Shown here piece after piece: positions 1-61,043 of a DNA stretch of 64,000 nt. Origin of the DNA: Hericium rajendrae (taxonomy: Eukaryota > Basidiomycota > Agaricomycetes > Russulales > Hericiaceae); assembly GCA_033439255.1 (NCBI GenBank), contig CM065889.1:1488001-1552000 (forward strand), written 5' to 3'. The notes under the pieces are model-generated. The model saw only the letters and a program-made list of their open reading frames with translations. It was not told the origin of the DNA and ran no database searches. The translations under genes and the position numbers were made by a program. Numbering within the stretch: the first letter of the stretch is position 1; each line of letters starts with the position of its first letter.

Positions 1-59
1 AAAGCATCGGGGATCGCGGGCCTGTGCGCGAGGCACTGGGCTGCCGCGGGTTCGTGTGC

Positions 60-400
60 AACGCATCAGGCGCTCCCCGTGCCGTTGACGGGCTGCCCAT
101 GTCGTCGACGGGCTGCCCGTGTCGTTGACGGGCTGCCCCTATCATCGACGGGCTGCTCATGCCGTCCGCGGGCTGGCCGCGGCGTCGACGGGCTGCCCGT
201 GCTGTCGCACGTCGTCCGCGGGCTCCCGGGGTTGCGGACAGGCTGCCCACGTCGTCTGCGGGCTGCCCGCGTCGTCGACAGGCTGCCTGTGCTGTCCGCG
301 GGCTGCTCGTGTCGTCGACGCCCATGTCATTCATGGGCTGTGTGTCGTCCGCGGGCTGTGTGTCGTCCGCGGCTGCCCGTATCGTGATCCGGATGGGCGG
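60..400. repeat. GC-rich minisatellite
   Basis: Imperfect tandem copies of an 18-24 bp CpG-rich unit (core GTCGTCGACGGGCTGCC). All three forward frames are open across it, but the predicted peptides simply mirror the repeat, so it is not called as a gene. An inverted copy of the same array lies at 37591-37984. Confidence 0.8.
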
Positions 401-588
401 GTCGCACGCGGGCAGCCGGCGCGGGCAGCGGTCGGGCTGCGGGTGTCGTTGATGGGGTGGTCGGCAGGCGAATGGGCGCGGAGGGTGCGCGAGAGCGAGG
501 CGGCGGAGTGTCGGAGGGGGGAAGGATGATGCTGGAGGGGCGACAGTCGGAGACGAGGGGGATGAGGGCGCGGGAGGGCGAAAGAAGT

Positions 589-618
589 TGAGAGTATCGC
601 TCGTTCGAGTGATACTCT
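589..618 (-). other. Conserved hairpin of the Plavaka-like module
   Basis: A perfect or near-perfect stem (AGAGTATC...GATACTCT with a CTCG/CGAG extension) next to an intron-like acceptor on the minus strand. Related hairpins lie at the same place in copies at about 28013, 32883 and 63935. Confidence 0.6.
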
Positions 619-1063
619 TGATGTTAGCACAAATAAATGGAATAAAAGTCTTTTTTACTCACCTTGGAGGCCCTCTGCATCTGCCTGAGTCCCTCCGGCA
701 TGCAGTTCGATGAGTCAGAAGGACAGGAGGAGGGTGGAGGGAGGAGAGTGGACAGTGGAGATGGTGGAGATAGTGAGAGAGTCAGAGAGACGAACTTCGA
801 CGCACGTCTCGGTGCTTCAGCCACCGAACGAGCGAAGCTACGTTCCTCGACCCACTACAAATCAGGAAAAATCACATAAATTGAGAGAAAAACCTCATAA
901 CTATAAATGGTATATAGAATTCAAATGAATGAGAAATATAAGTATCTACTGTACATGAAGCTCACAGGGAGCCAAGTCCATCTAGTGAAGTCTGGCACCC
1001 AGTCTCGACGCGACGCTCGGCAAGCACCCAGCAGCCGCGAATCCCGGCTTCGCCCGGGATTCC

Positions 1064-1071
1064 TATATAAA
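1064..1071 (+). promoter_or_regulatory. TATA box of the Plavaka-like module
   Basis: TATATAAA is followed by a pyrimidine-rich leader with about four copies of a 22-bp unit (TTTGCTCGCTCGTCGTTGTC, 1150-1250) and then by donor and branch-like signals (CTAAG|GTAAT, TACTAATAC). The same box is kept on the minus strand at 32431-32438 and 27555-27561, which supports function in the element. It points outward, toward the 2051 end. Confidence 0.5.
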
Positions 1072-2051
1072 GCTCGCGCGACGCACGTTGCCTCTTGCTC
1101 TTTAACCCCCACTGTCTCTTGCCACGTCGATGCCTTCGTCGATGTCCTTTGCTCGCTCGTCGTTGTCTTTTGCTCGCTCATCGTTGTCTTTTGCTCGCTC
1201 GTCATTGTCTTCTGCTCACGCGTTGTTATTTCTTGCTCGTTGTTGCTGTCTCTAAGGTAATCTTTTAATTGCTGGTCTCTTATTGCTTATACTAATACTA
1301 CTTTAAGTTAGTTTTTTAGAGTTCGCTTTTTGTTACTTTGGTAAGTTCTTATGTGCTATCTTTATCTTCTAAGACTAATGTTTTCTTATCTTTTCTTACT
1401 GAGTTTCTTAGATTCTCTTATCTTATATTCTCTTATCTTATATTATCTTATCATATCTTCTTGTATAATCATATCTTACTTATCTTATCATATCTTCTTG
1501 TATTATCATATCTTACTTATTTTCTTACTTATATTTTTGCTTTTTAGTTAGTAGTAGTGTTTGTAATACCAATATAATCTTGATGCATTGAAATACTTTA
1601 TACCTGTGTGATTATATGTTATTAATTCTGATTGATTGTAGAAAGGATTTACAGTTCTAATAAATTTTATTGCTTTAATATATATAGCAGGTCTACATAT
1701 TAAATATAAGATATATGAGACACATATTGAATGTAGGATATGTGAGACATATATTATACATAGGTTATGTGAGACACATATTGAATATAGGATATGTAAG
1801 ACACATAAGCCTTATAGCTTTGATAGATACTGATAGCTTTTATAGCTAGTCATACTATCATAGCTACATAGTCAGCCCTCATAGCTATGATAGCACTCCA
1901 TAGTACTCCATAGCATCATCTTTGAGCCTCATAGCACTACATAGCATCACCCTTTGGCTATGTGGGCTATACAATAAAGGGCGATACTATGAAGCTAGGA
2001 GATCTATGTAGACTTTATAGAGCTATGTACCACTGGCAAATTTTTCAGATG

Positions 2052-4627: not shown

Positions 4628-6045
4628 TTGGGCATAGTTGATTGCACATTGATTGTACCAATGGTATCACATTTGAGTCGAAAGTCATATAAATGCTGTA
4701 CATTTTTCTACCCAAATCCTGTGGGTTTCAGTTGTCGGCATGGCTTTATTACTGCTAGGGGCCTAACACAGCATATGGATGCAAAACATCCAGACTTATG
4801 CAGAGATGATATTTCTACAGAGAAGCCTTATTGTTCACCTTCAGCTTCAACTCATGCATCATCAACCAAACAAGGCCAGACAGATATATTTTATGCTGAT
4901 CCACATTATGGTGAACTTGATGATGATGCAGAGAGTTCAAATGCACAGCCTGGCACAAAAAATATGATGCATCCAGATCTAAATGGAATACCTTGTGATG
5001 ATACTGGAAATTATCTTGATGATGATGCAGCTCCTCATCCAAAAGATATTCCTGATTCAAATAACTGGTCCCCATTTCGAAATTGAATTGAGTTTGAGAC
5101 TGCAGATCTTCTATTTCAAGAGATGCCAGTCTCTGAGAAAAAAATTAATCATCTCATGGGACTCTGAGCAAAAACAACTAAGGCATATCCATATGCAAAT
5201 AAAGATGACCTTCATGCAGTGCTTGATTCAATTAAGCATGAAGATGCTGAGTGGTTATGTTTCTCAGTAAAATATAAGGGCAAACTACCTAAAGATCCAC
5301 CTTCATGGATGTCAAAAGGATTTTGAAGTCTGATATTGCAATCCATGTACAGTTCTACATAACCAACTAAAAAATCCTGACTTTGCTGGAGAATTTGATT
5401 ATGCTCCCAGACAAAATTTCAAAGAAAATGATGAACGACAGTGGACAGACTTTATGACCAGAGATTGGTCATGGAAGCAAGCTGATACAATTGTGGCTGA
5501 AGATCCAACAAATAAAGGAGCTATGTTTGTGCCAGTAATCTTAAGCAGTGATAAGACTGTTGCTTCTGTTGCTACAGGACATACTGAATTTTGGCCATTA
5601 TATATATCATCTGGAAATGTGCATAATAATGTTCATCGGGCTCATCGAAATGCTGTGAGCATCTTAGGATTCTTGTCTCTTGGACAAACAGATAGACAAT
5701 ATCAAAATAGTGTAGATTTTCATAGATTCTGTAGGCATTTGATTCAACAATCTTTGCACACAATTCTTGAGCATTTGCGTCCTGGCATGACTACTCCAAA
5801 AATTTGTTCGCTGTCCTGATGGACATCTTTGTCATGCAATTTATGGTCTTGGACCTTATATTGGAGATTATCTAGAACAAGTATTGATATTATGTATTGT
5901 TACAAGCTGGTGTCCAAAGTGCTTGGCTCTACCAAAGGATTTAGATGGTGATGGAGAAACTCGAAGTCATACACACACAGAATCTTTGATAAATAAAAGA
6001 ATCAAAAGAGGAAAACTATGGGATAACTATGACATAGTTCTTAAT

Positions 6046-26700: not shown

Positions 26701-28012
26701 CATCTGAGAAATATGTTACTGGTATATAACACTATATTAGCTACATAGCTTTTCTAGGTCCATAGCTGTCCTCTTTTATACATAGCAGTCAAGTAAACAA
26801 TGCAAAGCTATCATAGCTTGTCATAGCTGTCATAGCATAGGGCATAAGCTATCATAGCTGTCATAGTTATTCTAGTATAAGATAACTATAGAAGCTATAT
26901 TAACTATATAATATATCTCTATCATTATATTATATCTAGCTAGTAAGATTTCTATCTACTCTATATTACTTCTATCAAATATGCTAAAATAGCATATAAA
27001 ATAAATATATTATAGATTCAATAGTCTGATGTCTTACAGTCACAAACATCGAAAATTGGATAAATTATATTACTCAAACAATTTCATTACAAAACATTAC
27101 TATAGCTACAGAGACTACTACAGAACTATAAAAGGTAACAAACTTACAATGACTACAAAAAGCAAAAGATACAAATAAGAAAAGACATGAGTATTAGAAG
27201 ATAACAAAGATAATATATGAAGACTTACCAGATTAACAAAAAAGTGAAAATCTACAAGACAATTTGAAGACATCAGTATAAGAAACAATCAAGCTTATCT
27301 AGTAGGACTACATGGTAGTGTAATAAGTATGAAGACATTAGTATAAGTTATAAGATAATTAAGAATAACAGCGTACCTTTAACAACGAAGAGAACAATGA
27401 TTAATAAAATGAGCAAATGACAACGACGAGTGAGCAAATGATGATGATGAGTGAGCAAATGACGACAAGTGAGCAAATGATGACAACAAATGTGTTGACG
27501 TGGCAAGGGATGGTGGGGGTTAAAGAGCAAGAGGTAAAGCACATCGTGCCAGCCTTATATAGGAATCCCAGACAGAATCAGAATTTGTGGTTGCTGGGTG
27601 CTTGCCGAGTGTTGTGGCAGAGACTGGATGCCAGACTTTACTACGTTGATGCTGCTGCTCACAGATTCACAGTTCAGTAGATACACAGTGTTCTCATACA
27701 TTCTAATTAAATGTATAATCTATCACTGTCCCTTTTTTCGTTGAATTTATACAAGTTTATTTGATTTGCTGAGGCTCGAGCAACAAAGCTTTGCTCATTC
27801 AGTGGCTGAAGCACCGAGTTTAACATGTCGAGACTTCACTCCTTTTTACCAGTCTCCCTTCCCCTCCTTCGTGTTTCCTCCTCCAGCCTCCTTCCTTCCA
27901 TTTCTTTCATTCTCTATTGGCTTTCAATATGGCTGGGATGGTTTTTTTAGCAGATACTTAGAGGGCCTTAGGTGAGTAAAAAAAAAAGCCTCTTATCATT
28001 TTTTCGTACTAA

Positions 28013-29601: not shown

Positions 29602-30700
29602 AAGATCTTGAAAGGAAGATCTCAGTTTCGAGTTTTGATTTTTGAGTTCTGGGCAGATTGGGGTCTATGTAGCATGTCTGGAATGTGATTAATCAGTACA
29701 TTCCAGCACATTTTAGAACAATTAAATCGGTGGGGAACTGCCAGACTTACCTTAAGGTCAAGATCTTGGGGGGGAGATCTCAGTTTTGAGTTTTGATTTT
29801 TGAGTTCTGGATGGCATGGAGTCTATGTAGCATATCTGGAAAGCGATTAATCAGTACATTTCAATGCAATTTAGAACAATTAAATCGGTGAAGAACTGCC
29901 AAACTTACCTCAAGGTCAAAATCTTGGGGGAGATCTCAGTTTCGAGTTTTGATTTTCGAGTTCTGGATGGTTTGGGGGCTATGTAGCATGGCTGGAAAGA
30001 GATTAATCAGTAGAGTTGAACGCATTTTAGAACGAGAGAATTGGTGAAGAATTGAAGGACTTACCTCAAGGTCAAGATCTTGAGGGGGTAATCTCAATTT
30101 CGAGTCTTGATTTTCGAGTTCTGGATGGTTTGGGGGCTATGTAGCATGGCTGGAAAGCGATTAATCAGTAGAGTTGAACACATTTTAGAACAAGAGAATT
30201 GGCAGAGAATTGATGGACTTATCTCAAGGTCAAGATCTTGGGGGGGGGTCCTAGTTTCGAGTTTTGATTTTCGAGTTCTGGATGGAATGGGGTGTATGTA
30301 ACATGTATGGAAAGCTATTAATTAGTACATTCCAGCTCAATTTAGAATGAGTGAATCCGTGGAGAACTGAGGGACTTATCTCAAGGTCAAGATCTTGGGG
30401 GGGGAGATCTCAGTTTCGAGTTTTGATTTTCGAGTTCTGGATGGTTTGGAAGCTATGTAGCATGGCTGGAAAGAGATTAATCAGTAGAGTTGAACGCATT
30501 TTAGAACGAGAGAATTGGTGAAGAATTGAAGGACTTACCTCAAGGTCAAGATCTTGAGGGGGTAATCTCAATTTCGAGTCTTGATTTTCGAGTTCTGGAT
30601 GGTTTGGGGGCTATGTAGCATGGCTGGAAAGCGATTAATCAGTAGAGTTGAACACATTTTAGAACAAGAGAATTGGCAGAGAATTAATGGACTTACCTCA
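29602..30700. repeat. Tandem satellite, about 158-bp unit, about 7 copies
   Basis: The phrase AAGGTCAAGATCTTG recurs near 29755, 29912, 30070, 30228, 30382, 30541 and 30699. Each unit also carries GAGTTTTGATTTTCGAG and a GGAAAGCGATTAATCAGTA-like segment. Units are about 85-95% alike by eye. Confidence 0.85.
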
Positions 30701-31800
30701 AGATCATTAGAATAATGATAATTGGTTGATTTTCAACTAGGCAGATAGGCTAGCATAGCTCAGAAGGCCTCATCTGGAAGCAGCTATCAATATCATTTTG
30801 ATAAGCTTCAATATACCTTAGTTGGTATCAGATTTAGAGACCTATAAGTAAATTAGTCTGCCAGCTCAGCAAGTTAGATACATACAAGACGACCAAGGTG
30901 AGCCGCCGGATCAAGTACCTCCTGGTTCCAAACCGTTAACCACTCAGCGGATGACTTGGAGATACCCGTCGAGCTTTGCAGCCAACATGACAAGCATGCA
31001 GGATGTAAAGCTCATGAGAAAGCAAGACTTTACTGCTGGTGCTTCAAAACTGAAATTTTGATTATATAATCAGTCTTCAAAATCATAGATTTCTAGGCAT
31101 TTCTGTACTTATAATATACTATAAGAGTAGACATTGTACTAATGCTAATTGCTCATTGATTATATTATTCTTAGTATTAAAAAATATTAAAAAAGTCTGG
31201 CATGAACTGGAATTGAACTTGCAAACTCAAGAGAACTCACACTTCACCACCGAGTTTTGATTATGTAATCATCACATAATCACCACCATGGTACGGCCGT
31301 ACCATGGTGAAGTGCTCATGTGATCACAACCATGGTACAGCTGTACCATGATGAAGTGCTTCACATTCTATGAGTTCTGCATGGATCAAAATGCAAAAAA
31401 TATGGTTCAAAAGCTATAAATGAGTAGTATTCGATCCACTTGAGAACGAGTGAATTGGTGGAGAATTGATTGAGATAACTAAGAATCAAGCATACTAGGA
31501 GGAAAAATACAGAAGTACTTCGTGTTCTACGAGTTCTGCCAGATCAAAATGCATAAAATATGGCTAGAAAGCAATGAATGAGTAAATTCTGATACATCTA
31601 AGAATGAGTGAATCAGTCAAGAACTGACTGAGCTAGCTGAGGATCAAGCATACTAGGGGAAAAAATACAGGAATGCTTTGCATTCTGCAAGATCTGCATG
31701 GATCAAGATGCATAATATATGGTTAGAAAGCGATAAATGAGTAGATTCTGGTGCATTTGAGAATGTGTGAATTGGTCAAGAACTGACCAAGTTACAGTAA
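30701..31800. repeat. Diverged satellite units and palindromes
   Basis: 31380-31790 has about three degenerate units with the same order of motifs as the 158-bp satellite. At about 31195-31250 lies a B-box-like tRNA-derived scrap (inverse of AGTTCAATTCC). 30701-31190 has no gene I can recognise. Confidence 0.5.
31284..31309. repeat. Perfect 26-bp palindrome
   Basis: CACCATGGTACGG followed by its exact reverse complement. A second, 20-bp palindrome built on CATGGTACAG lies at 31331-31350. Confidence 0.9.
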
Positions 31801-31804
31801 ACAA

Positions 31805-31971
31805 AGTGTAAAAGAAAAAGTCTGGCCAGAGCTGGAATTGAACCTGCAAACTCGTTAGATTGAAGATGTGTGATTATATAAGCCAACTGCCTAATGGGCA
31901 TAGTCATCGTTTTGGTGTCGTTTTCACTATGAAAAGGCGGTATAGAGTAAACGATTCTAAGGAATCGTAAT
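31805..31971 (-). repeat. tRNA-derived SINE
   Basis: On the minus strand: head TTACGATTCCTTAGAATCG, an A-box-like TAGGCAGTTGG (about 31887) and a B box GGTTCAATTCC (about 31837). It replaces the terminal part expected of the neighbouring Plavaka-like copy. Confidence 0.6.
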
Positions 31972-32430
31972 AAGTAAGAAAATAAGTAAGATATGATAAT
32001 ACAAGAAGATATGATAAGATAAGTAAGATATGATTATACAAGAAGATATGATAAGATAATATAAGATAAGAGAATATAAGATAAGAGAATCTAAGAAACT
32101 CAGTAAGAAAAGATAAGAAAACATTAGTCTTAGAAGATAAAGATAGCACATAAGAACTTACCAAAGTAACAAAAAGCGAACTCTAAAAAACTAACTTAAA
32201 GTAGTATTAGTATAAGCAATAAGAGACCAGCAATTAAAAGATTACCTTAGAGACAGCAACAACGAGCAAGAAATAACAATGCGCGAGCAGAAGACAATGA
32301 CGAGTGAGCAAAAGACAACGACGAGCGAGCAAAAGACAACAACGAGCGAGCAAAGGACGTCGACAAAAGCATCAACGTGGCAAGAGACAGTGGGGGTTAA
32401 AGAGCAAGAGGCAACGCGCATCGCGCGAGC

Positions 32431-32438
32431 TTTATATA
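32431..32438 (-). promoter_or_regulatory. TATA box of copy A2
   Basis: TATATAAA on the minus strand, in a region aligned base for base with 1064-1071, followed (leftward) by the repeated GCTCGCTCGTCGTTG leader. Confidence 0.5.
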
Positions 32439-32847
32439 GGAATCCCGGGTGAAGCCGGGATTCGCGGCTGCCGGGCGCTTGCCGAGCGTCGCGTCGAGAC
32501 TGGGCGCCAGACTTCACTAGATGGACTTGGCTCCCTGTGAGCTTCATGTACAGTAGATACTTATATTTCTCATTCATTTGAATTCTATATACAATTTATA
32601 GCTATGAGGTTTTTCTCTCAATTTATGTGATTTTTCCTGATTTGTAGTGGGTCGAGGAACGTAGCTTCGCTCGTTCGGTGGCTGAAGCACCGAGACGTGC
32701 GTCGAAGTTCGTCTCTCTGACTCTCTCGCTATCTCCACCATCTCCACTGTCCACTGTCCTCCCTCCACCCTCCTCCTGTCCTTCTGACTCGTCGAACTGC
32801 ATGCCGGAGGGACTCAGGCAGATGCAGAGGGCCTCCAAGGTGAGTAA

Positions 32848-37990: not shown

Positions 37991-38413
37991 TGTCAAGACT
38001 CGGTCGTAGACAGCAGAGAACCACCCAAGTCACCAGCGATGATGGGAGCGAGAGAGCAGAGAGTGACTAGCAGCGCAGTGACCTGTATTGGAGGTACAGT
38101 ACGGTACAGACGAAATGGACAATCTAGGGAAATAGGCGAGCGACAGGGAGCCTATAAGTACTGGGACGACAATGGGAAAAGAACAATGAACACCATAACA
38201 GGTCGAACAATAGAGTGAGAACAATGGTGGCCAAAAGGAGAACAATGGGAGGGAGAACAATAGGATGTCCCAAAGGGGAGCAAGGGCATGGGTGAAGGAT
38301 AGCCCCAGGTCATGTGAGGAAGTGAACATGTGATGGGGCTGCTGGAGCGCATGACCGTCGCGATGCCTTGATGGCAGAGAAGAAGGCGGAGAGAAATGGA
38401 GCGATCCATGACA
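37991..38413 (-). repeat. 3' LTR of the second Gypsy fossil
   Basis: TGTCA...TGACA bounded, 423 bp, paired with 44553-44975. Confidence 0.9.
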
Positions 38414-41400
38414 TCACCCCCTCTCTAAGACGCACTTTCGCCTGGAGTGCGTGATGAGCATGGACAGGGTCAAGGTAGATGAGTCCACGAAGATTGGGAG
38501 CCTTGAGTGCATGCGGATGGCGGGTGTAGAAGTCGGTGATTGCACCATGGGCATTGGAAAGGGAGGTACGTGAAAGCCACTGATTTTCTGAATCGGGGTA
38601 GCCTGCCCATTTGACGAGATATTCAATGCCGCGTTTGTTCCGGATGAGACGAGCATCGAGGACAGACTCAACTTCATATTCTTCCTCACCCTCCACAAGG
38701 TCAGGTGGTGGTGCAGGGAAGTTGGGCCCATGAGCATCGGTTTCCTTGTAAGGGAACAACAGGGATGTGTGGAACACTGGGTGGATACGCCAGGTGGGCG
38801 GCAGCTTCAGTCGATAAGAGACTGGGCCCAGGACGTCAGTGATTTCGAAAGGTCCCAGGCGTCGATCAGCAAGCTTAGCTTTGGGTCGTGTGGTTTTGAT
38901 GTTCTTGCCATCGAGCCAGACCTTGTCGCCAACCTGGAAGTGGATGGTGTCGTGCATATGGTCCTGGTTGTTGCGCTTCATGAGATCAGCAGCTGTTTGA
39001 AGGCTGGCCTGGACCTCAGTGCGAAGCTGTTCGAGATGACGGAAACGGTCCTCGACAGCGGGTGTAGATGACGTGGGGTTGACAGTGGGGATGGCAGTGG
39101 GAATATAGCCAAGGAGCATTTCAAATGGAGCTCGGTTAGTGGCGCTGTGGATACGGTGGTTGTGCGAGAACTCAGCGTAAGGGAGCCATTGGACCCAATC
39201 ATCCTGGCGGTAGTTGCAGAAGGTACGAAGGAACTGCTCGAGTTCTTGATTGACGCGTTCTGACTCGCCGTCGGTCTGTGGATGATAGGCGGTGCTGAGG
39301 GAGGACTTGATACCAAGTTTGTCAAAGATGCCACGCATGACTTTGCCTGCATATTGTGGGCCACGATCAGAGATGAGGCGTTCCCAGAGGCCATAGTTCC
39401 GATAAATCCTGTCAAAAAGGATGTCGACTGTGCCATCACTGGTAATGGTCTCTTTACAAGGAGTGAAGGAGACGTGCTTTGTAAAACGGTCGACGACCAC
39501 ATTGATGGAGTCATAGCCCTGGCATTCTGGGAGTTTGACGATGAAGTCCGAGGTAATGTCTTGGAAGGGACAGGTAGGGATGGCGTTGGGAATTGTTTCA
39601 ACATGAGGGCGGTGATTTTGAACCTTGGTGGCCTGGCAGGTAGCACAGCCATCAACATAATCACGAACAAAGACAGACATACCGGGCCACCAGTAGTTGC
39701 GACTGAGGAGCTCATAGGTCTTGTAGTGTCCTGGGTGACCAGCCATGGGGGTGTCATGATGCAGCTTGACGATGTCCCGACGAAGGTCCTTGTCAGCAGG
39801 GATGTAGACTTTGCCACGAAAGAGGATGAGGCCATCCTCGTAGTTCCATTCTTGGAGGTTCTTGACGAGGGAGCGAGGACCATTGTTCAGGATCACATCA
39901 AGGGCTTGAACAACCTCAATGTCCTTGGTCTTGGCATTGCGAATGCGTTGGCGAAGATCAGCATTGCCAATGGACTTGACAGCAGCTGGACGTGTAGCAC
40001 GGATCTGGAAGTACTTGGGGTCGAGGAGGACACGATCTGAGTTGTCGTCGTCCACCCCCTCTCTATGGTCAGGTCGTCTCGACATGGCATCTGGCCGGTG
40101 ATGAATACCGGGTTTGTGGATCAGGGTGAAGTCGAAACGAGTGAGGAAGAGAGCCCAGCGAGCTTGACGACGACTCAGCTTTTGGGCAGACTTGAAGTAT
40201 TCCAGGTTCTTATGGTCGGTCCAGATCTCCACAGTATGGGGAGAACCTTCCAGGTAGTGGCGCCAGGCTTCGAGGGCACGGATGATGGCCAGGAGTTCCT
40301 TGTCATAGATGTCGTAGTTGCGTTCGGGGGCGGTGAAGGCCTTGGAGATGTAAGCAACAGGGTGCCATTGCTCGTCCTCCCCGCGCTGGGATAGGATACC
40401 TCCTGTGGCATAGTCTGAGGCATCGACCTCAACCAGGTAGGGTTTGGACGGGTCAGGCATGATAAGGACTGGGGACGAGGTGAATGCAGCTTTAAGAGCC
40501 TCAAAGGCATGTTGACATTCAGCAGACCAGGCCCAAGGATGGTCTTTCTTGGTAAGGTCAAACATGGGACGAGCGACTTTGGAGAAGTCCTGGATAAAGC
40601 GTCGATAGAAGTTGCCAAAGCCAACAAAGGACTGGACGTCCTTGACGTTACAAGGGGCAGGCCATTCAGCAATGCCTGCAACCTTGACGGGGTCCATGGC
40701 GAGCGTGTTATGGGAGACGATGAGACCGAGGAACTCAACTGAGGGCTGCTCGAATGAGCACTTCTCTGGTTTGAGGAAGAGGTCATTGTCCTGGAGGCGT
40801 TGGAGGACCTTGCGCACAAGGTCGCGATGTTCTTCGAGGGTTTCGGTGAAAATGAGGATATCGTCCATGTAGATGATGACTTTGCCCGTATCGATGAGAT
40901 CCTTGAAAAGTTCATTCATCATTCCTTGGAACGTGGCAGGGGAGTTGGTAAGACCAAAAAACATCACCAGGGGTTCAAAGAGACCGCGGTTGGTTTTGAA
41001 GGCGGCTTTCCATTCGTCGCCCTCCTTGATGTGAACGTTGTTGTAGCCCCAATGAACGTCCATCTTGGAGAAGACTTTGGCACCCTTGAGCTTGTCCACG
41101 AGTTCAGAGATGAGGGGCAGGGGATATTCATTCTTGATGGTGCCTTTGTTGAGGGTACGATAGTCCTGGACGGGGCGTAGTTTTCCATCTTTTTTCTTGA
41201 TAAAGAAGAAGGGACTCGCCATAGGGGATTTGGAAGGACGGATGTAGCCTTTCTTGACCTGGTCATCAAGGAATAAATCGAGGTCCTCCTGCTCAGTAGG
41301 AGCCATGGGATAGACCTTGCATGAACGGGGTTCAAAACCATCTTTCAGGTCAATGGCGTGATCCCAAGGGCGACGTTCGGGGAGGCGATGGGAGGATTCC

Positions 41401-44400
41401 TCGTCAAAGACAGGTTGGAAATCCTGATACTGAGGGGGAACCATCTCAGCAAAGGACTTCTCTGCAACACGAGTGGCCACACGCTCCGCCAGTTTCTGAG
41501 CATTGGTGAAAGAGCGACGGATACGGATGGTGTGTTGATAGTCAGGGTCGTCGTCTGGTGGGGGTGGTGTGTCCCAGTCAGGGAGAACACCAGCTAGACG
41601 AAGGCCCTCTTCAACTCAGTCATCATCGACATTAGGTCGGGGGTCATCGTCCTCGGTGAATAGACGTGCAGGGACTTTGGACAGGTGGATGCGGCGAAGG
41701 CGAACACCTTGGACTCAGCGAGCGGGGATCACGTATTTGGGAAGTGGAGCAGCGACAAATGGTGGGGGCTGTGGGAGCAATGGAGGGGGGCAAGGTGGGG
41801 GGGAGCAGTACTGCAGCAGCGCTGAGGACTGGTGGACGAGGGGCTGAGTGGCGGCGTTCAGTGCGAGTGGACAGGTTCTTGACCGGGGGTTTATTCAGAG
41901 TGCAAGAGGGAGGGCAGCGAGTCATGTCGACACGACGAGAGACCCAATCAATTTCAGGGTTGTGTTCCTGTAACCAATCGGTCCCAAGGATAATGTCATA
42001 GTCACCAATGTCAACGAGATAGAACTCAGCTGTCTCCTCATGGAAGGACGTCGAGTCCTTGGCGTAAATGCGGATGTTCTGGTTGACTGAATAGTGGACC
42101 CAGCCCATGATGTTTTCAGAGTTGTCCACATTGCGAACGGGAAAGGGTTTAGGGAGTTTCTTGAGGGGGAACTGGTGTTTCTTGGCAAACTCGGGGTGCA
42201 TAATGATGCCTTCTGCACCACTATCGAGAAGTGCCTCAGCGTCGATTTGTTTCTTGATCAGGGCAGTGATAATCTTGGCCTGGAGCGTAATGGACGGTGT
42301 CTGACGGTTGGGTGTGATAGCGGACATGCGCAAAGACGATGGATACGATTGCTCACAGGGGTCAGATAGTACAGAGAAGCGATTCGACGGATCAAAGAAA
42401 TGTTTCTTGCCACCCACGGACGACGTGACCGGGGGGTGCTTTAAAAACCCTCAACCATATCCTTTAATGCAGCCTTTGCCTCTTCCCTCTCTTCCTCGCT
42501 CAAGTCCTTCAACTGCGACGATAAGTCGGCGATGGACCTGTTGATGGCGGGGACAGCGAGGGCGGCGGCTGCATCTTCTGGAGCTACTCCCGGGGCAGAG
42601 CCAGTTTCTAGCGCTCGGACACGAGGGGTTGGGGCACGGGGGTTGGAGTCGGCATTGAGGGGGCAGTCGCGGAAGCCATGGCCCTTCTGGCGGCAGCGGA
42701 AGCAACCGCCCTCACGCCTGAGGCACTCACGGTCAGGCTCCGAGAGTTTGGACAGTGGGGCACCTGTAGCAGCAACTGTGCGGGATCGGCCAGTAGATGT
42801 GGACTGAGGGGAGCGAGTGCTCACCGGGGTGCGCCCAGTTGTAGGGCGGGGACTCTGGAACCGGGTGCGCATGAGGTAGGCAGCATTCCTGTCACGGGCC
42901 CTCGCCTTCCACTCAGCCAGGGTGGTGGGCGTGGGGTAGCTGCGCTGGCAATCATCGCGCAGGGTGCTGTTGAGGCCATGCAGGAACCAGTCGATCAGGG
43001 CCACGTCATTGTAGCCAGTGCGAGGGGCGAAGGACTCAAACTCGGTGATGTAGTTGACTACCGGGCGCGTACCCATCTGGAGGGTCTGGATAGCATGGGA
43101 GGCATCCTTGGAGTCGTCAAGGGGAGAGAAGTCCAAGTTGAAGCGAGTTCGAAGGGCGGTGAGCGAGATCATCATCCTCAAGGATCTCCTCGACGCGCTG
43201 GGTGGCCCACTGGCCGGCGATAGGGCCCTGGCAGAGGTCGAGGAAGAGGGAGATCTGGGCGGTATCATCTTTATACCGGGTAGAGTTGGCGCGAAGGAAT
43301 AAGCGAATACGCAGCTGGAATTCCTTGGACTTGGAACGATCTCCCTCAAAGGGAGCAGGTTTGACGCCGATCTCAGGGTTGGACATGTCGATGGATGGCT
43401 GAACAGGGGGGGCTGTGGTAATGGGGTAGGCGTCGAAACAGGTGGTGGTGGTGGGGCCCGAAGGGTATCGAGGCGGGTAGCTTGTTGCTGAGCGAGATTC
43501 TCTATAACTGCTTGAGAGAGTGCGAGTTCTGCAGTGGTTAAGAAGAGGGTACTGGCCTGCCAAAACCACAGGTCACTTTCTTCTACGAGGCTGGGTCTCC
43601 AACTGACTACAAGCCGATTGGTGTCGGAGCGGTATGCGTAGTAGTTGTTGGTTACCGGGTTGAAGGTAATACCTGGGGGAACAACAAGTGGGGTGGTGCG
43701 AGCAGGGGGAGAATCTGCACTAGGAAGGGCGACGGTGGGAAGCGGCGGGGTAGCAGGGTGTTGGCGACGGTGTTCTGTAGCTGCGACGTCGAAGTCGTTA
43801 AGCTCGAGGTCTGCCTGGTCGTCACGATCGGCGAAGTACCACTGTGCAGGACCGTCCTCGTCCTCGTCCGGAGTGACGAAGTCTATTCGAACGATGCCAG
43901 AAAGGGTGTAGATGAAGTATTCGTCGAGCGAGGTGAAGACACCGAGTGGGTATGGTTCTGTGGTCTGGAAACGGGGGTCGGTGGGATCAATGGTGAGGTC
44001 TAGAAGAAGTCAGCCGCAACTGGGCGACGACCAAGAGCACGAGGGTACAGGGGGTCCGAGTACGGGTTTCTGAGGAATCGGTGGCCGAGGCGTTCTCTGG
44101 CCCACACAGGCTCAGGTGAGGGTTCGGGGGTGAAGAGACCTAGTGTGCAAAAGGGGAACGAGGTCGATGGTAGGATACTTGCAGGGGATCCTCGGTTGGG
44201 TTGGCGACAGTGGTAAGCGATATCCGAGGCACCCAACGTGAATTCTTGCAAGTCGACGTCAAAGGAAACTCGAATTCGAACGTATAAGACAATGGAGATA
44301 GCACCTGCACGTGGTTTCCACGACCTCAATCGAAACCAAACTCCTTCGGCTTCCCAACGCTTCACAGCACAATAGCGGAGGAGGGGGATGAGTGCACTAC

Positions 44401-44552: not shown

Positions 44553-44975
44553 TGTCAAGACTCGGTCGTAGACAGCAGAGAACCACCCAAGTCACCAGCG
44601 ATGATGGGAGCGAGAGAGCAGAGAGCGACTAGCAGCACAGTGACCTGTATTGGAGGTACAGTACGGTACAGACGAAATGGACAATCTAGGGAAATAGGCG
44701 AGCGACAGGGAGCCTATAAGTACTGGGACGACAATGGGAAAAGAACAATGGACATCATAACGGGTCGAACAATAGAGTGAGAACAATGGTGGCCAAAAGG
44801 AGAACAATGGGAGGGAGAACAATAGGATGTCCCAAAGGGGAACAAGGGCATGGGTGAAGGATAGCCCCAGGTCATGTGAGGAAGTGAACATGTGATGGGG
44901 CTGCTGGAGCACATGACCGACGCGATGCCTTGATGGCAGAGAAGAAGGCGGAGAGAAATGGAGTGATCCGTGACA
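44553..44975 (-). repeat. 5' LTR of the second Gypsy fossil
   Basis: Same length as the 3' LTR. Most of the differences between the two are transitions at CpG sites. Confidence 0.9.
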
Positions 44976-45184
44976 TCGGCTAACTGGTCAACCAATCAGG
45001 TTGTCTCATTATCTCATAGATCTCACTTACATTTGTCTCTGACATTTGTCTCGAGACAACAGTGTCTACTTATAGTAGAGATATAGACTATATAGTGCTA
45101 TATTGTAAGGTGAGACACATATATAGACCATATACCTTATGTACTTCTAAGTGGTAGCTATACAGATTTAAGTTTTCTCTGATG

Positions 45185-47083: not shown

Positions 47084-50000
47084 TTACTTGACTTTTCCAT
47101 CTGTTCTCACTTTTGTTTTTGCCTTTGCTTTAGATGCTTTTTTTGACCGATCAGACTCCTCAGACTCATTTCCACCCTTGCGATTAGCTTGCGCTTTCTT
47201 ATCAGCTAAACTGTGTATAAACAAATTATACAGTTGACAGAATGAATATTAATCTCACATTTTGCTGCCTTCTTTTCTAACTCATCCCAATCCTGTCCTA
47301 CAAAAAGTGAAAATCATTTTCCCGATATAGAACAGTGCACCAACCTTCACTCTCATCATCGTCGAAGTTGGTATCACTGTCTTCATCTCGGCTCGCATCA
47401 GATTCATCAAAATCACTACCATCATCTGAGCTCTCATTGCTTTCTGAGTGAAATGATTCAGCTTCAAACTCAGATTCAGATTCAGATTCTTCATCCTGCT
47501 CGCTCTAATTGACATATATCAGTACTGACATCATCGTTGACATAGGACCATACCTGATCTCCAGCGATACCACCCAAAAAGTGCCAACCTCCTGTTTGAA
47601 AGAAATCATACGGACTGTCATTTATGGTCTTCATGATAGGCCCCCAGTTTAAATTGACCGGGCCCTCCGCGAGAGGGATATCGACAGAACTAGTAACAAT
47701 GAATCAATATCCATTTGCTAAGTTTATATTATCAAACACTTACTCTAGCCAATTTTTGACATCATCCAATTGTGAACTCGGGATGGAATTGATATGCAAC
47801 GGTGCCTTCGAAAAATCTCTGAACACGAAAATGAGATCAAACTGCTTGAGACCGAATCTGACACGCTCCAGTGATGCAATCTCGATATCAGCCAAGCTCA
47901 CGACAAGGAATGGTGGGTCTGATAGATGGACAAGACAGTCGGTGGTCGGCTGCAGGCGTACGTTGGTACGGAACGGAACGCCTTCAAAAGACAATTCTCT
48001 GAACGGGATATCTGGTTCGAGTGTATCGCCAGTCTTCATGACAATCAGGAACCGGACACTCTGAAAATCAGTCTATGTACTTACCGATACTGTAGCGGCT
48101 TCCGCTATTTTTTCGGAGAAAGCTTTGAATTCCTTATTCAGCATCTGTCGTCGTTTGCGCTCTTGCTGTTCCATTTCGATCTCATCTTCGTCTCCGTATC
48201 GATACTTCCTTTTTCGGTTCCCAGTTTCATCAAACTGCACATCAGATGCCTCCCGGAAAAATTGGATGTCCTAACAATAGGATCAGCTTCACGCAAAGCA
48301 GCGAAGACAAAAAGGCAGACATGAGCTTTCTTCTTCCCGATCATAATCGGAGCTTTCAGATGAATGTGAATAATCACGAGCAGCTCATGATCACATGGTT
48401 GAAAAAAGAGATGTTTGACGTTGCTGAAAAGGACATCTACCGTGTTGTATAAGTTGAAAGCCCGAAAAAATATGATTTTTGGGAAACTCTTACCAATCTT
48501 TTGTGTCCCCATGGGAGATTGATATCGCAAGCCATTCTGATGGATCTCAACTTCACCGGGGAGACGCTTTCCGTCAAGCGCAGGTCGTACAAAAACTTCC
48601 GGCAATTTGTGTGGTCTGCGGCCCTTGACTTCCACGAGAATGTCTTGCTCGATCACGTCAGCAAGCTCTTTCTTTTGTTGTTCCCTTTTGTTGACCTCTT
48701 TCTTGAGATCTGTTATTTGTTTGCTGATTGCATCGAAGCGATGACCATCGGCAGAGCGATAAGAGATGGACCGCACAAACGTCGCATCTGGGTCCTCGAA
48801 AGGCTATATTGACCTTGTCAGTGGGAAAACGAGCAAAAATGACAGCGAGGAGCATACAGTATCCTCCTTTTTACCGGCCAGCTGACCTGGAGTCTGAAAA
48901 TTGACACGAATATACGTAAAGTCGCCTTCATCGTTCTTGCTGACATTCTTGATCGTGTTGATATGAAATGGGACAGCGAACCCATAAATCGGAAGAACCA
49001 CCGTGTGTGCTTTCCGATCAACATATATCTGAGGCAGTTTTAAATCTCAAGACACAGCATAGATGGGAGAAGTACGAACCCGGAGGCTCTCCGCCTCCCT
49101 TGGCAGACCTGCCTCACCCTTATAGCTTTGAAACCTCTTCCATGACTTGCCCTCTTTACCACCGGTGCCTCCATTCTCCTCTGCATACCTTGCAAGGCCT
49201 TCAGCTTGGAGTTGATCGTGAAGTTCTTGCTGGTGTTCAGCTATCCTAGCAGCGGTAGATTGCGCCACCTCTTCCTGTGCTGCGCTACGAGTTTTGTTGC
49301 GCAGCACCTTGCCGCCGGCGATCTTGCTTTTCATAGGAGAGCCAATACCATTAGCTGCAGCCCTCTTGAGAGGCTTTTCGGCAGCCCTGAGAACCTTAGT
49401 TTCGGGAGAGTTCAGATAAAACATTACGTCCTTCGCAGATTTTACGCCTTCCGTGATAGAGACAGCCTTGTCATACCCAATTTTCACGGTGTCCACAACC
49501 TGCAGAGCATATCTGCAGAAGATGAGGCCTATGAATGAGCACGAAGTAAGAAGCATACTTTTTGTCATCTTGATCTTCAAGATCCTGGAAGCCAAGAGAA
49601 AGATTGAAGACCATGTTGGTCTTGAGCTGTCGTCCGTTCTTCGGAGACAATAAATACACCGCATCGCGGAACTCTAAGCCCATCTGAAAAAAAAATGAGA
49701 TTAAGTATCAAGAGGCGATAAGCCACCAACCCCGAATCCAATATTCTTGACAAAATTCTTCTCAAGCTCCGGCTTGTGTTTCCTTATCTGCGTCAGAGCA
49801 TGCTGATAGATGTCTTTGATAAGTGCACCGTCCTTCATCCTGTTGAGAACCTCTGTCTGTAGAAGTAATAGGAAATTATAAATTGCTTCCTGCTCCTAAA
49901 GAAAGGTCGTAAAAAGGACAGAATCAAATGATCTGGAGGAACGCCACCTTGTCTGGGTCAACAATGAATGTTCTTCCAACGTTGGCACAATATCCTTTGT

Positions 50001-51177
50001 ATCGCATGCCCACGGACACCAGCAGAACACCTTTATGCGACATATGATCCGATGTTGACTCGGCTGTATACTTGAGATCATAACCAGTGCTAGAAGACCG
50101 GGACTGTATGATAGGCGGATAACAGAACTCCGTCGACAGCCAATCAATCTGAAAAATCTGGTATTCAGGTCGACAAACTGTAGCCAATCAATGTACTCAC
50201 ATCAGATAGCCCCCTACCCTTGTTGAAAATCCTCATATCCGGACCTCTTGCATTCGCGTCATCGCCGGAACCGAGACGTGCCTCGATTTGAGCAGCAAAC
50301 TGCTCGTGCGAAATCTTCGTCTCCCTGTCCAGAATAGTCTCAAGTCTGGGGGCGATGTGATGGGTGAGTAATGTCGTGGTCAGATTGGCAGCCGTCCTTA
50401 TTGCTATCTGGGAAAATATGAGATAACGCTTTGATGTATCGAAAGGACCTACCAGTTCGTCGTCGTTTTTAACTGCCATGAAAAACGAGATAGCTGGACC
50501 GATGTCGACAAGCTCTGGCTTCGATTCAGCTGACAATAGAGCCCTAGTCCACTCTTCAGCTAATTTCCCAGAGAAGCTCTCTTTGGTCAATAATCCGACA
50601 CGATGCTGCGACAGAAAAGTCTTCATGATGTCTGATAAACCTTCTGTAACCGAATCCTTCGCCTTTGAGTAGATCAAGATATCCACAGGCACAATAGTGC
50701 CATGTGTTTGGAGTTGTTGCAGAATCTTGGCTAATAAACGCGAACGTTCTTTATTAGAAGAGAGATAACATGCAAGTTGAGTTCTCGGCATACCTTTGTT
50801 GGCGGAGCAAAGCACAGATAATTTGTCCTTCTGAAGAAGCAGCAGAGTGGACGGAAACTCGTACCCCAGCAACCACGTCTAAGAGCGTATATGGGTACGG
50901 GTGTCAATACTGGAAAAAATATAACAACGTATAAAAAAAACGGACCTGGAAAGCGACGCCTTTCCGGATAGGCTCATCCTCTGCAGAAGGATCCCCAGCC
51001 GCCAAGAAAAGGGCATCAACGTCAGCTATCGTGCTCAAGTCATCGTTCTTGTTCGCTTTCTGATGAAGAGTTAGACGAATGAGCACCCGATGAGCATAGT
51101 AGACGGCTTACCGACCACGAGTCAAGTATGGATTTCAATCGCGCATTGAAAAGGTCCTTGTTCAACTCCACATGCAT
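47084..51177 (-). CDS. SPT16: FACT complex subunit Spt16
   Basis: Histone chaperone subunit of FACT, which loosens and rebuilds nucleosomes during transcription and replication in the nucleus. My model has 18 exons: 51177-51112, 51059-50946, 50878-50794, 50730-50453, 50407-50201, 50148-49948, 49895-49731, 49683-49559, 49512-49080, 49028-48858, 48803-48494, 48436-48321, 48270-48085, 48033-47744, 47689-47554, 47504-47345, 47297-47259, 47205-47084. The exons total 3204 nt (1067 aa), normal for the family. An N-terminal lobe and aminopeptidase-like fold ([14 protein letters not shown]) are followed by a linker ([10 protein letters not shown]), middle histone-binding domains ([32 protein letters not shown]), an acidic tail (about 962-1015) and a basic C-terminus. 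All introns are GT-AG and short. The start follows family length ([10 protein letters not shown]). A transposon end lies only 197 bp past the stop. Confidence 0.95.
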
Positions 51178-57839: not shown

Positions 57840-58888
57840 CATCAGTACTCTTACAAACTTTCTGCTAGATCTTATTCTGTCTGATCTTGTCTGATCACCT
57901 TATCTACCTGACAGATTGGTCATTTCTGGCTAAAAACAAAATCAGGCAAGTCAGGCAGAGTCAGATTTTATCAGATATGCATTTACACTCAGACCTAGTC
58001 AGATTTGAAATATCTTCTGCTGTCGGACAGCTCAGGCAGAGTATAGTCTCTCAGACACAGTCAGATTTTGAATGTTGTTCAGATTTCAGATATTCTTCAG
58101 ACTTTAGATGTTGATCAGATTTTTTTTTCTTGTCAGGTCAGCTAGGCAGGGTGTAGTCTCCTAGACACAATCAGATTTTAGGTGTCTTTCAAATTTTTTG
58201 CTGTCAGACAGATCAGGCAGGGTGTAGTCTTTCAGACACAGTCAGATTTTTGATGTTCTCCAGATTTTAAATGTTTATCAGATTTGTTTTCTTGTCAGTT
58301 TAGCCAGGCAGGTGTAATCTCTTAGACATAGTCAGATATCAATTTACATTTAGATTTTAGCTCAATATCAAATCAAGCAGAATAATTAAAAATTAACAAG
58401 TGTAGATGGATAGACATGAATATAAGACAGTGCACTAATGTGCATTGAATAAACTTGCAAGTGAAAATGAATGTGAGTTTGAACAGAGGATAGAAATTCA
58501 ATATATCATTGTTACTAGATAAAGGCTATGCTTCTCAGGTAGAATATTAGTGTTGTTATATTGTACACTTTAGTTGTAGACCTGCATCATAGATTACTGT
58601 ACCATTTCGGTTGTAGGCTGTCAATGTTGGCCATGACCAAATTTTTAAAATCCAATAAATCAAAAGAAAATTATTGGCATTGGAAAACCTTAGGCTCGTG
58701 GGCCTCTGTGACCTGTGATCATTGATGCGAGCCTACAACCAAAATGGTACAGTACACTGGCAGATGTTTATAAGTCTAATTAAAAATTTGGTCATGTCCA
58801 ACATTATCGAGCCTATAACCAAAACAGATAGTAGTTTGCAACACATTGTAAAACTGCCTGAAGAGGCCTACAATAGATAATATGAACA

Positions 58889-59026
58889 ACATTGAAACCT
58901 TCAAACTTTCTGTTTGACCTGCAAGGCATGTTAGTGTCTGATGCAACTGCTGCAGATCATGCAGAGATACAATCAGACACTGTCAGATGCCTCATAGGTC
59001 AAACAGAAGTTTTGAAGGTTCCTGAT
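58889..59026. mobile_element. Decayed CATCAGGAACC-family MITE
   Basis: Shares ACCTTCAAACTTTCTGTTTG and AGTTTTGAAGGTTCCTGAT with the 401-bp copies, but the middle is deleted and the left end is eroded. Confidence 0.6.
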
Positions 59027-59199
59027 AAATCAAAATAAACTAAAAGTTGCTCCAATCCATGTACTAGACATTTGCTGATGTAGCAAGTGGTTGACAAAGT
59101 TATTGTAAACTCAAGGTTGTGAGTCATCTTTAGCTGTAAACTGCCTCTAGATCAGTAGACTAAGATTACAGATCACATCCATACAAAATAGTACTACAG

Positions 59200-59600
59200 C
59201 ATGATGCATAAGGGCTTGTTGAGAAGCAATTATATAGGGCTTTCAAATACATCTAAGAATATAATGATCAGACAAAAACTGATTGAGATAGATCAAGATT
59301 TCTTGTTTAAGAGGATCAGAAGCAGAAATGGTCCTGCACAAATGAGTTCTGCAAATATCAGACTGTATAAGGCCTTATTTAAAAGCAATAAATCAGACCT
59401 TTCCAATGCATTCAAGACTGAGAAAAAGTGCCCAAAATTGACTAAGATATCAATCAATCTTCTTCCAAAACAAAAATGCATTGCATTCCACGAGTTCGAA
59501 CATAAAGTGGCGTATAAAGGTTTGTTGAAAAGCGATTGAAAAGACCTTTTCAACACATCTAAGAACGTCGAAATCTGATGCAAATTGAGTGAGCTACAAG
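59200..59600. repeat. Diverged 158-bp satellite-like units
   Basis: About two and a half units with the same motif order as 29602-30700 (GAGTTC..., AAAGCGATTGAAAAG, ACATCTAAGAA, TTGAGTGAG) but strongly diverged. Confidence 0.45.
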
Positions 59601-59729
59601 CACCAGATCATATGTCTTTGTTTAATTGTGGCTATGTGGCTGATTTAAACTCCGATTAAAAGACATATCTGACGAGTTTGCTCCAAAATACCTCTCTCTC
59701 TGCAACCACCACCATCTCTGCTCTTGAAG

Positions 59730-60613
59730 GTAAGTTTGTTATCTTTGTTACCTTTGACTTCATTTCTGCTTTTTTGTAGTTATGTGACTACTACTCCTAA
59801 GGTAAGTATTGTTGACTTTGTTATCTTTCTGATCTTTTTCGCTTTTTTGTAGTGTTACTACACTTCTAAGATAAGCATTTGTGATCTTTGTTATGTTCCT
59901 TACACTAATGTTGTTATCTTTTTTGTACACTTTTGCTTTTTTGTAGTCATTGCTACAACTGTAAGGTAAGGTTTGTTACCTTTTAAGCTGTTATCTTTTC
60001 ACTTTTTGTAGTGTTTGTTACATTGTTAAGGTAAGGTTTGTTATTTTTTTTTTTTCAGATTACAACTGATGTTGTTATCTTTTTTGTACACTTTTGCTTT
60101 TTTGTAGTCATTGCTACAATTGTAAGGTAAGTCTTGTTATCTTTCTTATCTTATTACAACTGATGTTGTTATCTTTTTTTTTTCTACTTCATTTTCGCTT
60201 TTTTGTAATCTTTGTTATACTTCTAAGGTATGATTTGTTATCTTTTTTATCTTGCTTACACTAATGTTGTAATCTTTTCATTATATTTCGCTTTTTTATA
60301 GTCTTTCTTATTATTGTAAGTTCTGTTTTGTTATCTTTTCTTACATTTTCACTTTTTGTAGACTTTGGTCTACTTTTAAGGTAAGCTTTGTTATCTTTGT
60401 TATATTTCTTACATTTATATTGTTATCTTTTTAGTAGATTTTCACTTTTTGTAGTCTTGACTACACTTCTAAGATAAGTTTTGTTATCTTTGTTATCTTG
60501 TTAAGACTAATAAAGTTATAGTTTTTCAGATTCATTTTTGCTTTTTTGCAATCATTATAAGGTAAGGCCCTTGTTATTTTTGTAGTCTGTTTTACTTTTT
60601 TGGTAGTTCTAAG
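59730..60613 (+). repeat. Tandem array of micro-exon/intron-like units
   Basis: Eleven or twelve units of 60-101 bp. Each has an acceptor-like TTTTTTGTAG, a short block that is 19 nt in most units (for example 59947-59965, 60012-60030, 60108-60126, 60362-60380), and a donor-like AAG|GTAAG, then TTGTTATCTTTGTTATC and in several units a branch-like CACTAATG or ACTGATG. Some units have altered donors or acceptors. A pyrimidine-rich leader with donor GAAG|GTAAG precedes it at 59690-59730. Confidence 0.7.
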
Positions 60614-61043
60614 ATAAGTCTTATAATCTTTATTATGTTTTTCAGCCTGATGTTGTTATATTTGTAGCCTTTTTTGCTTTTTTTGTAATTGGGATGATTA
60701 CTTAGGTAGTTGATATGATGTTTGTCTAGCCTATAGATATATTAATTGATTGAAAAGCATAAATTCAGGGTATAATATCAGATTTAAAATTGCTATCAGG
60801 TTTAAAGCTGCTGTCAGCTTTAAATCTGAGGCCAGACATAAAATCTGGAGCCAGACATGAAATCTGGAGCCAGACATAAAATCTGGAGCTAGGCATAAAA
60901 TCTGAGATCAGAAGTAAAATCTAAGGTCAGATATAAATCTGATTGTATCTGTGGTACTATACCCTGCATGATTGCCTGATGTGTCTGAATGTTGCTCCCA
61001 GGTGCAATCAGACATGGCCAAAAAGTTTGTAAGAGTACTGATG

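Follow-up and report, generated by a model that had tools for sequence, protein, structure and literature searches.

Tandem micro-exon-like units in a non-autonomous PlavakaB-type transposon of Hericium rajendrae, a candidate for an expanded non-coding leader

Three reports provide close points of reference for the locus described here. In Cryptococcus, introns raise RNA levels cumulatively (PMC3744415), and poorly spliced transposon RNAs feed RNAi (PMC5851062). PlavakaB transposons have been defined by the termini CATCA..TGATG together with 2- or 3-bp duplications (PMC12730594). Within a 64-kb stretch of the Hericium rajendrae genome, hereafter the window, we characterized a tandem array of micro-exon-like units carried by a transposon. 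The elements and the splice words involved are known ones; their arrangement is unusual, and no prior description of such arrays was found among the titles, abstract openings and passages covered by our literature search.

Tandem Repeats Finder and self-comparison place approximately 11 degenerate tandem units at about 59727–60690 of the plus strand, close to the ten or so units proposed in an earlier sequence-only reading of this DNA; counted from the end of its leader, the array with its T-rich spacers occupies positions 59730–60690 (+). Each unit consists of a T-run followed by GTAG, a short block, the donor-like word AAG/GTAAG (the slash marking the putative splice position) and a T-rich spacer. 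The word TTTTTTGTAG has four exact occurrences in the 64-kb window, every one of them within the array, against 0.13 expected, and an 80-nt stretch is repeated inside the array at 94% identity. Directly upstream lies the CT-rich leader recognized in the same reading (59691–59729, +), a putative first exon that closes with the initial AAG/GTAAG donor, which is GT in all ten aligned copies of the element. With borders set by hand-placed anchors between the acceptor-like and donor-like words, the plus-strand blocks of U1–U10 measure 22 nt (U1, 59780–59801), 18 nt (U2, 59853–59870), 19 nt (U3, 59947–59965; U4, 60012–60030; U5, 60108–60126; U6, 60209–60227), 14 nt (U7, 60302–60315), 19 nt (U8, 60362–60380; U9, 60455–60473) and 10 nt (U10, 60552–60561), and a shorter last unit, U11, follows at 60607–60613 (+). 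The claimed predominance of 19-nt blocks is thus borne out in 6 of the 10 units, as are the AAG/GTAAG donors and the absence of an open frame, the longest ORF overlapping 59600–60750 of the unspliced sequence being 56 aa long.

The ‘complete splicing grammar’ attributed to the array does not hold for every unit: in the window copy, 3 of the 12 listed donors read ATAAG (U2, U9 and U11), and the U6 and U10 acceptors have AA as their last two bases; the donor word of U7 is ATT/GTAAG. Spacers, measured from a listed donor to the next listed acceptor, span 46–82 nt; the sequence-only reading had given 45–70 nt for the real introns of this genome, and three introns joined by eye in the host gene SPT16 of the window measure 63, 54 and 54 nt. 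This gene, encoding a FACT subunit according to Pfam, is located at 48138–50872 (−). The statement that a branch-like word often accompanies the units is too strong, because CTAAT shows no enrichment across the array (3 occurrences versus 1.42 in shuffles) and CACTAATG is found just twice.

As had also been suggested, the array resides in a non-autonomous transposon, denoted F1 (57840–61043, +; 3204 nt), with the inverted ends CATCAGTACTCTTACAAAC; the left terminal inverted repeat, CATCAGTACTCTTACAAACTTT, covers 57840–57861 (+), the right one 61022–61043 (−), and the window copy has the termini CATCAG..CTGATG. A search of the 46.8-Mb genome (19 contigs) uncovered approximately 18 loci with full or partial copies of the array element. 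Of the 18 F1-type loci retrieved, 12 showed both ends, among them L013 with a changed first and last base, and ten uninterrupted arrays contain 9–12 units each. The F1 end word is present at 49 places in the genome at no more than one mismatch (control, 0), and its ends are common to two larger elements, L034 (8.4 kb) and L035 (9.2 kb), which span matches to the Plavaka transposase profile PF18759 (132 matches in the genome): one end is shared over ~430 bp at 86% identity, and the other over ~245–265 bp at 74–78%. The array is present in neither of these two transposase-bearing elements, indicating that the F1 interior came from elsewhere. A 2-bp target duplication accompanies 7 of the 12 F1 copies, two of which derive from one duplicated segment; it is not found around the window copy. 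Compared with PlavakaB as defined in print (PMC12730594), F1 is similar in its CATCA..TGATG termini, in sharing its ends with PF18759-spanning elements and, for 7 of 12 copies, in a 2-bp duplication, and differs in having no transposase and an array-bearing interior that is missing from both transposase-bearing elements compared. A Helitron, which would insert between A and T without duplication, was considered and dropped in view of the published PlavakaB termini and of the 2-bp duplications of a second family, F2, described below.

Transposons cluster near fungal centromeres. The F1 end words are likewise clustered, in one stretch per contig (C3, 1.33–1.68 Mb; C4, 1.63–1.78 Mb; C12, 1.46–1.79 Mb; and others), and the window falls inside such a stretch. 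L013 and L018 each hold, nested in the array or located at its end, an element of smaller size whose inverted ends are of the CATCAGG type. The F1 copies L011 and L012, ~29 kb apart at ~1.71 and 1.74 Mb of C12, match almost perfectly and have identical flanks, and hence represent a segmental duplication. Elsewhere in the window, a PF18759 match with internal stop codons is found at 5313–6045, a tandem array of seven copies of a 158-nt unit at 29602–30706, and a pair of direct repeats (37991–38415 and 44553–44977; 425 bp, 97.6% identity) flanking long minus-strand ORFs (38310–43569) that, by eye, resemble a retrotransposon of the Gypsy type whose end is chromodomain-like. A segment at ~31840–31930 (−) looks tRNA-derived by eye, and ARAGORN, run with the bacterial code, reported no tRNA there.

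Related leaders are carried by other elements. Weak matches of the genome search with the array led to the F2 elements (L027–L033; 2.73–2.80 kb), which have the ends CATCTGA..TCAGATG and 2-bp duplications in 7 of 7 cases, and carry CTATATAAGGCATGCGCGACGC, an F1-like CT-rich leader and units such as TTTCGCTTTTTTGTAG/TCATAGTAGGACTTTTAG/GTAAG. A promoter word of the TATA type, TATATAARGC..GCGCGAYGC, is present at 400 places in the genome at two mismatches or fewer (reversed control, 0); F1 does not have it at its own leader. We read 13 promoter-bearing loci, namely L036–L041 (6 of the 100 promoter places listed, out of 400) and the F2 loci, and in 13 of 13 the promoter is followed by a CT leader and then by a donor-type word, the first donor place of L039 being degraded; the leaders read contain one or a few related units. 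An alternative assignment of this promoter module to an LTR was rejected, given that the F2 elements have inverted ends.

Modules of this kind are also found in the window. An F3 element contributes a promoter, leader and spliced-leader-like module that extends to the element's 3′ end (1060–2051, +) and an interrupted opposite copy (31970–32440, −). A third module of this kind, whose promoter matches less well, is situated at about 27050–27565 (−) and includes, at 27143–27152, the unit TTTTTGTAG/TCATTGTAAG; the sequence-only reading had pointed to a related unit at precisely this position, and one is confirmed: it lies on the minus strand, where a predicted intron ends. The two F3 copies, in opposite orientation, occupy 1–2051 (+) and 37979–26059 (−), the second being split by nested insertions, and align at 94–98% identity (1–395 with 37979–37585, 389–1532 with 33113–31970, and 1532–2051 with 26551–26059). 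In the leaders of F3 and L041, for instance at ~1122–1145 of the window, the first exon contains ACGTCGACGCCTTCGTCGACGT, an almost perfect palindrome, with tandem repeats of 21 nt after it.

A micro-exon word, TTTTCGCTTTTTNNTN{3,14}GGTAAG, occurs at 83 places distributed over all 19 contigs (control, 0), and a GATAAG version with a slightly different gap at a further 16. In 35 of the 83 places, AGA stands exactly before the word; the implied acceptor would border a ~22–25-nt exon on its 5′ side. L042 and L043, picked from the 83, each display two tandem micro-exons separated by clear introns. The strict F1 unit pattern, by comparison, is found at 97 places (control, 0), which by position comprise six in F2-type matches, with the rest in F1 copies. 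For the most part, the micro-exon of the related leaders seems to start ahead of the T-run, AG/ATTTTCGCTTTTT..., so that the 19-nt block of F1 is one possible, and perhaps derived, exon. In a comparison that covered 78 of the 132 Plavaka rows and 50 of the 400 promoters, none of the 83 micro-exon sites had a Plavaka row on the same strand in the next 8 kb downstream; 2 of 50 promoter sites did, in both cases past the 3′ end of the element. Among the sites compared, then, no Plavaka row follows within an element, and the array is missing from L034 and L035, so we rejected the idea that the module is the leader of Plavaka transposase genes.

Indirect support for splicing comes from a scan of ten leader regions for introns of 40–100 nt, in which a donor, CTRAY and YAG were required and 200 dinucleotide shuffles served as the reference. 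Fifteen intron-like chains of 54–95 nt were recovered, against 2.38 ± 1.48 in the shuffles, none of the 200 reaching 15, and the reverse strand of the same regions yielded three. Taken singly, five of the ten regions were equalled by at most 6 of 200 shuffles and the other five by 34–67. The branch-point-like word present in the 15 predicted introns is one that the scan itself required. In F1, the scan returned three predicted introns, a number equalled by 1 of 200 shuffles; the start of one of the three is a word that is no unit donor. As a family, the module looks like a spliced leader, of which the F1 array would be a partly worn representative.

This wear is best appreciated by comparing the ten aligned F1 copies, which are not independent of each other, since six of them (L017–L022) are close relatives. 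Of 96 donors identified by regular expression, 70 are GT, as a U2-type spliced leader would have, and 26 are AT. All ten copies have GT donors at E0, U3, U6, U7, U8 and U10 and AT donors at U9 and U11; mixed are U1 (GT in the window copy, AT in 7/10), U2 (AT in the window copy, GT in 6/10), U4 (GT in 9/10) and, where present, U5, which could be aligned in 3/10 copies. Acceptors are AG in most units and copies, including those of U6 (8/10) and U10 (9/10); at U8, six of the ten copies have AC. The U9 block, for all that its donor is AT throughout, has no variable site.

These patterns bear directly on a doubtful but still sizeable alternative, namely that a once-spliced leader has left in F1 a neutral tandem expansion within a mobile element, with no present function. 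Consistent with such a relic, two single positions of the words vary freely: donor position +1 is variable in 3 of 11 cases, against 2.75 expected from the background, and acceptor position −1 in 4 of 10 units. The fixation of AT at U9 and U11, the differing numbers of units between copies and the equal diversity of the array and the 3′ part of F1 (0.050 and 0.050) point in the same direction. By contrast, the words as a whole vary less than base-matched sites, with 6 of 85 variable sites in donor words (−3 to +5) against 16.0 ± 2.9 and 7 of 100 in acceptor words against 14.6 ± 3.2; the array shows lower diversity than its immediate upstream flank (0.113); and block lengths are constant across the aligned copies. 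Gap patterns number 2 in the acceptor-to-donor segments (294 of ~960 nt) and 12 elsewhere, a difference unlikely to be significant. Set against the sequence-only reading's own test, free drift of the splice-like words, the outcome is mixed: entire words drift less than base-matched sites, but donor +1 changes at the background rate and acceptor −1 varies in 4 of the 10 units.

Something other than splicing could also be what is kept, with short hairpins and TTATCTT words as the two candidates. The array contains 7 perfect short hairpins versus 1.06 in shuffles (0 of 100 reaching 7) and 20 versus 10.7 when G–U pairs are allowed, and its fold z-scores, each from 20 shuffles, are −4.1 (plus strand) and −3.1 (minus strand), although tandem repetition inflates all such scores. 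In principle, then, the units could be maintained as short RNA or DNA hairpins (TGTAG..CTACA and AAGRTAA..TTAYCTT), with the splice-like words as a by-product, and it fits this notion that a donor +1 of either G or A pairs with U in the second hairpin. We nevertheless deem it very unlikely: the U8 palindrome is perfect in the window copy alone among the ten aligned, the donor hairpin of U2 in L016 has an A–C mismatch, and no such regular pairing was seen in the related leaders. A known structured RNA was rejected as well, with no Rfam matches at gathering scores in the 64-kb window.

GATA factors bind TTATCTT-type words. TTATCTT occurs 15 times in the array versus 0.79 in shuffles and AAGATAA 3 times versus 0.03; TTATCTT-type words are variable at 7 of 101 sites, compared with 102 of 548 sites elsewhere in the array, and the related leaders bear CTTATCTTATC runs. 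All of this is compatible with a group of GATA-factor sites acting at the DNA level to drive transcription, a proposal to which we assign an equally slim chance, considering that the same words amount to plain pyrimidine-rich intron sequence and that L042 and L043 have few of them.

Taken together, the promoter word, CT leader and related units of its relatives make a non-coding spliced leader grown by duplication the best reading of the array, as the sequence-only reading had put it; the transposon context, the lack of an ORF longer than 56 aa, the CT leader and the duplication all stood up, and splicing receives indirect support. More specifically, we consider it about an even prospect that the array is an expanded and partly decayed non-coding 5′ leader module of PlavakaB-type non-autonomous DNA transposons. 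Whereas the array, the transposon ends, the order of promoter, leader and units in the relatives and the varying unit number are there to be read in the DNA, the homology of units across element families is what we infer from them. In such a scheme, the ancestral arrangement would be that of the relatives, with a TATA-type promoter word, a CT-rich stretch and then, between short introns, a single tiny T-rich exon or a few of them. F1 would descend from a one- or two-unit leader by duplication of the unit to about ten; growth by duplication is supported by the one- and two-unit relatives, the 9–12 units in ten arrays and the internal repeat. The acceptor may have shifted to within what had been the T-rich exon, the T-run turning into the pyrimidine tract and GTAG into the acceptor, leaving blocks of mostly 18–22 nt. 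The leader would presumably be transcribed and spliced, with AT-donor units skipped or read through. By analogy with basidiomycete genes, whose RNA accumulation is raised by introns, the likeliest effect here would be that introns near the RNA start increase the amount of this RNA, and a transposon promoter joined to a multi-intron non-coding leader would most plausibly serve the accumulation of RNA.

A bolder version of this proposal, which we regard as unlikely, holds that the promoter and spliced leader form a cassette swapped between families with different ends and that the F1 array is a splicing device. It might mark the RNA as intron-containing, allowing it to accumulate or to escape surveillance; alternatively, dead donors and hairpin-covered sites might stall spliceosomes and steer RNA-based silencing.

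If the units are spliced, the array amounts to a natural experiment in the making of micro-exons by duplication, with 9–12 units, close copies and donors that differ by single bases. It would also raise the question of why a promoter and a multi-intron leader are present in elements that encode no protein, and would link the spread of mushroom transposons to the intron dependence of basidiomycete RNA. For genome annotation, the repeated promoter and leader are a caution in themselves, because spurious or chimeric gene starts can arise from them.

Among known systems, the module resembles non-coding multi-intron fungal leaders and the intron-dependent expression of basidiomycetes (PMC3744415), with which it shares a position on the promoter side, short introns and a leader devoid of coding capacity; it differs from them in its tandem blocks of 10–22 nt and in belonging to transposons for which no coding part is known. 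The runs of very short exons recall the Schistosoma micro-exon genes (PMC10526429), but those genes encode secreted proteins, whereas the array, with mostly 19-nt blocks and a longest overlapping ORF, in unspliced sequence, of 56 aa, does not qualify as a coding micro-exon gene. Finally, the poorly spliced transposon RNAs of Cryptococcus (PMC5851062) offer a parallel in that the introns of a transposon RNA matter for its fate, and the F1 array may, hypothetically, be linked to such a process.
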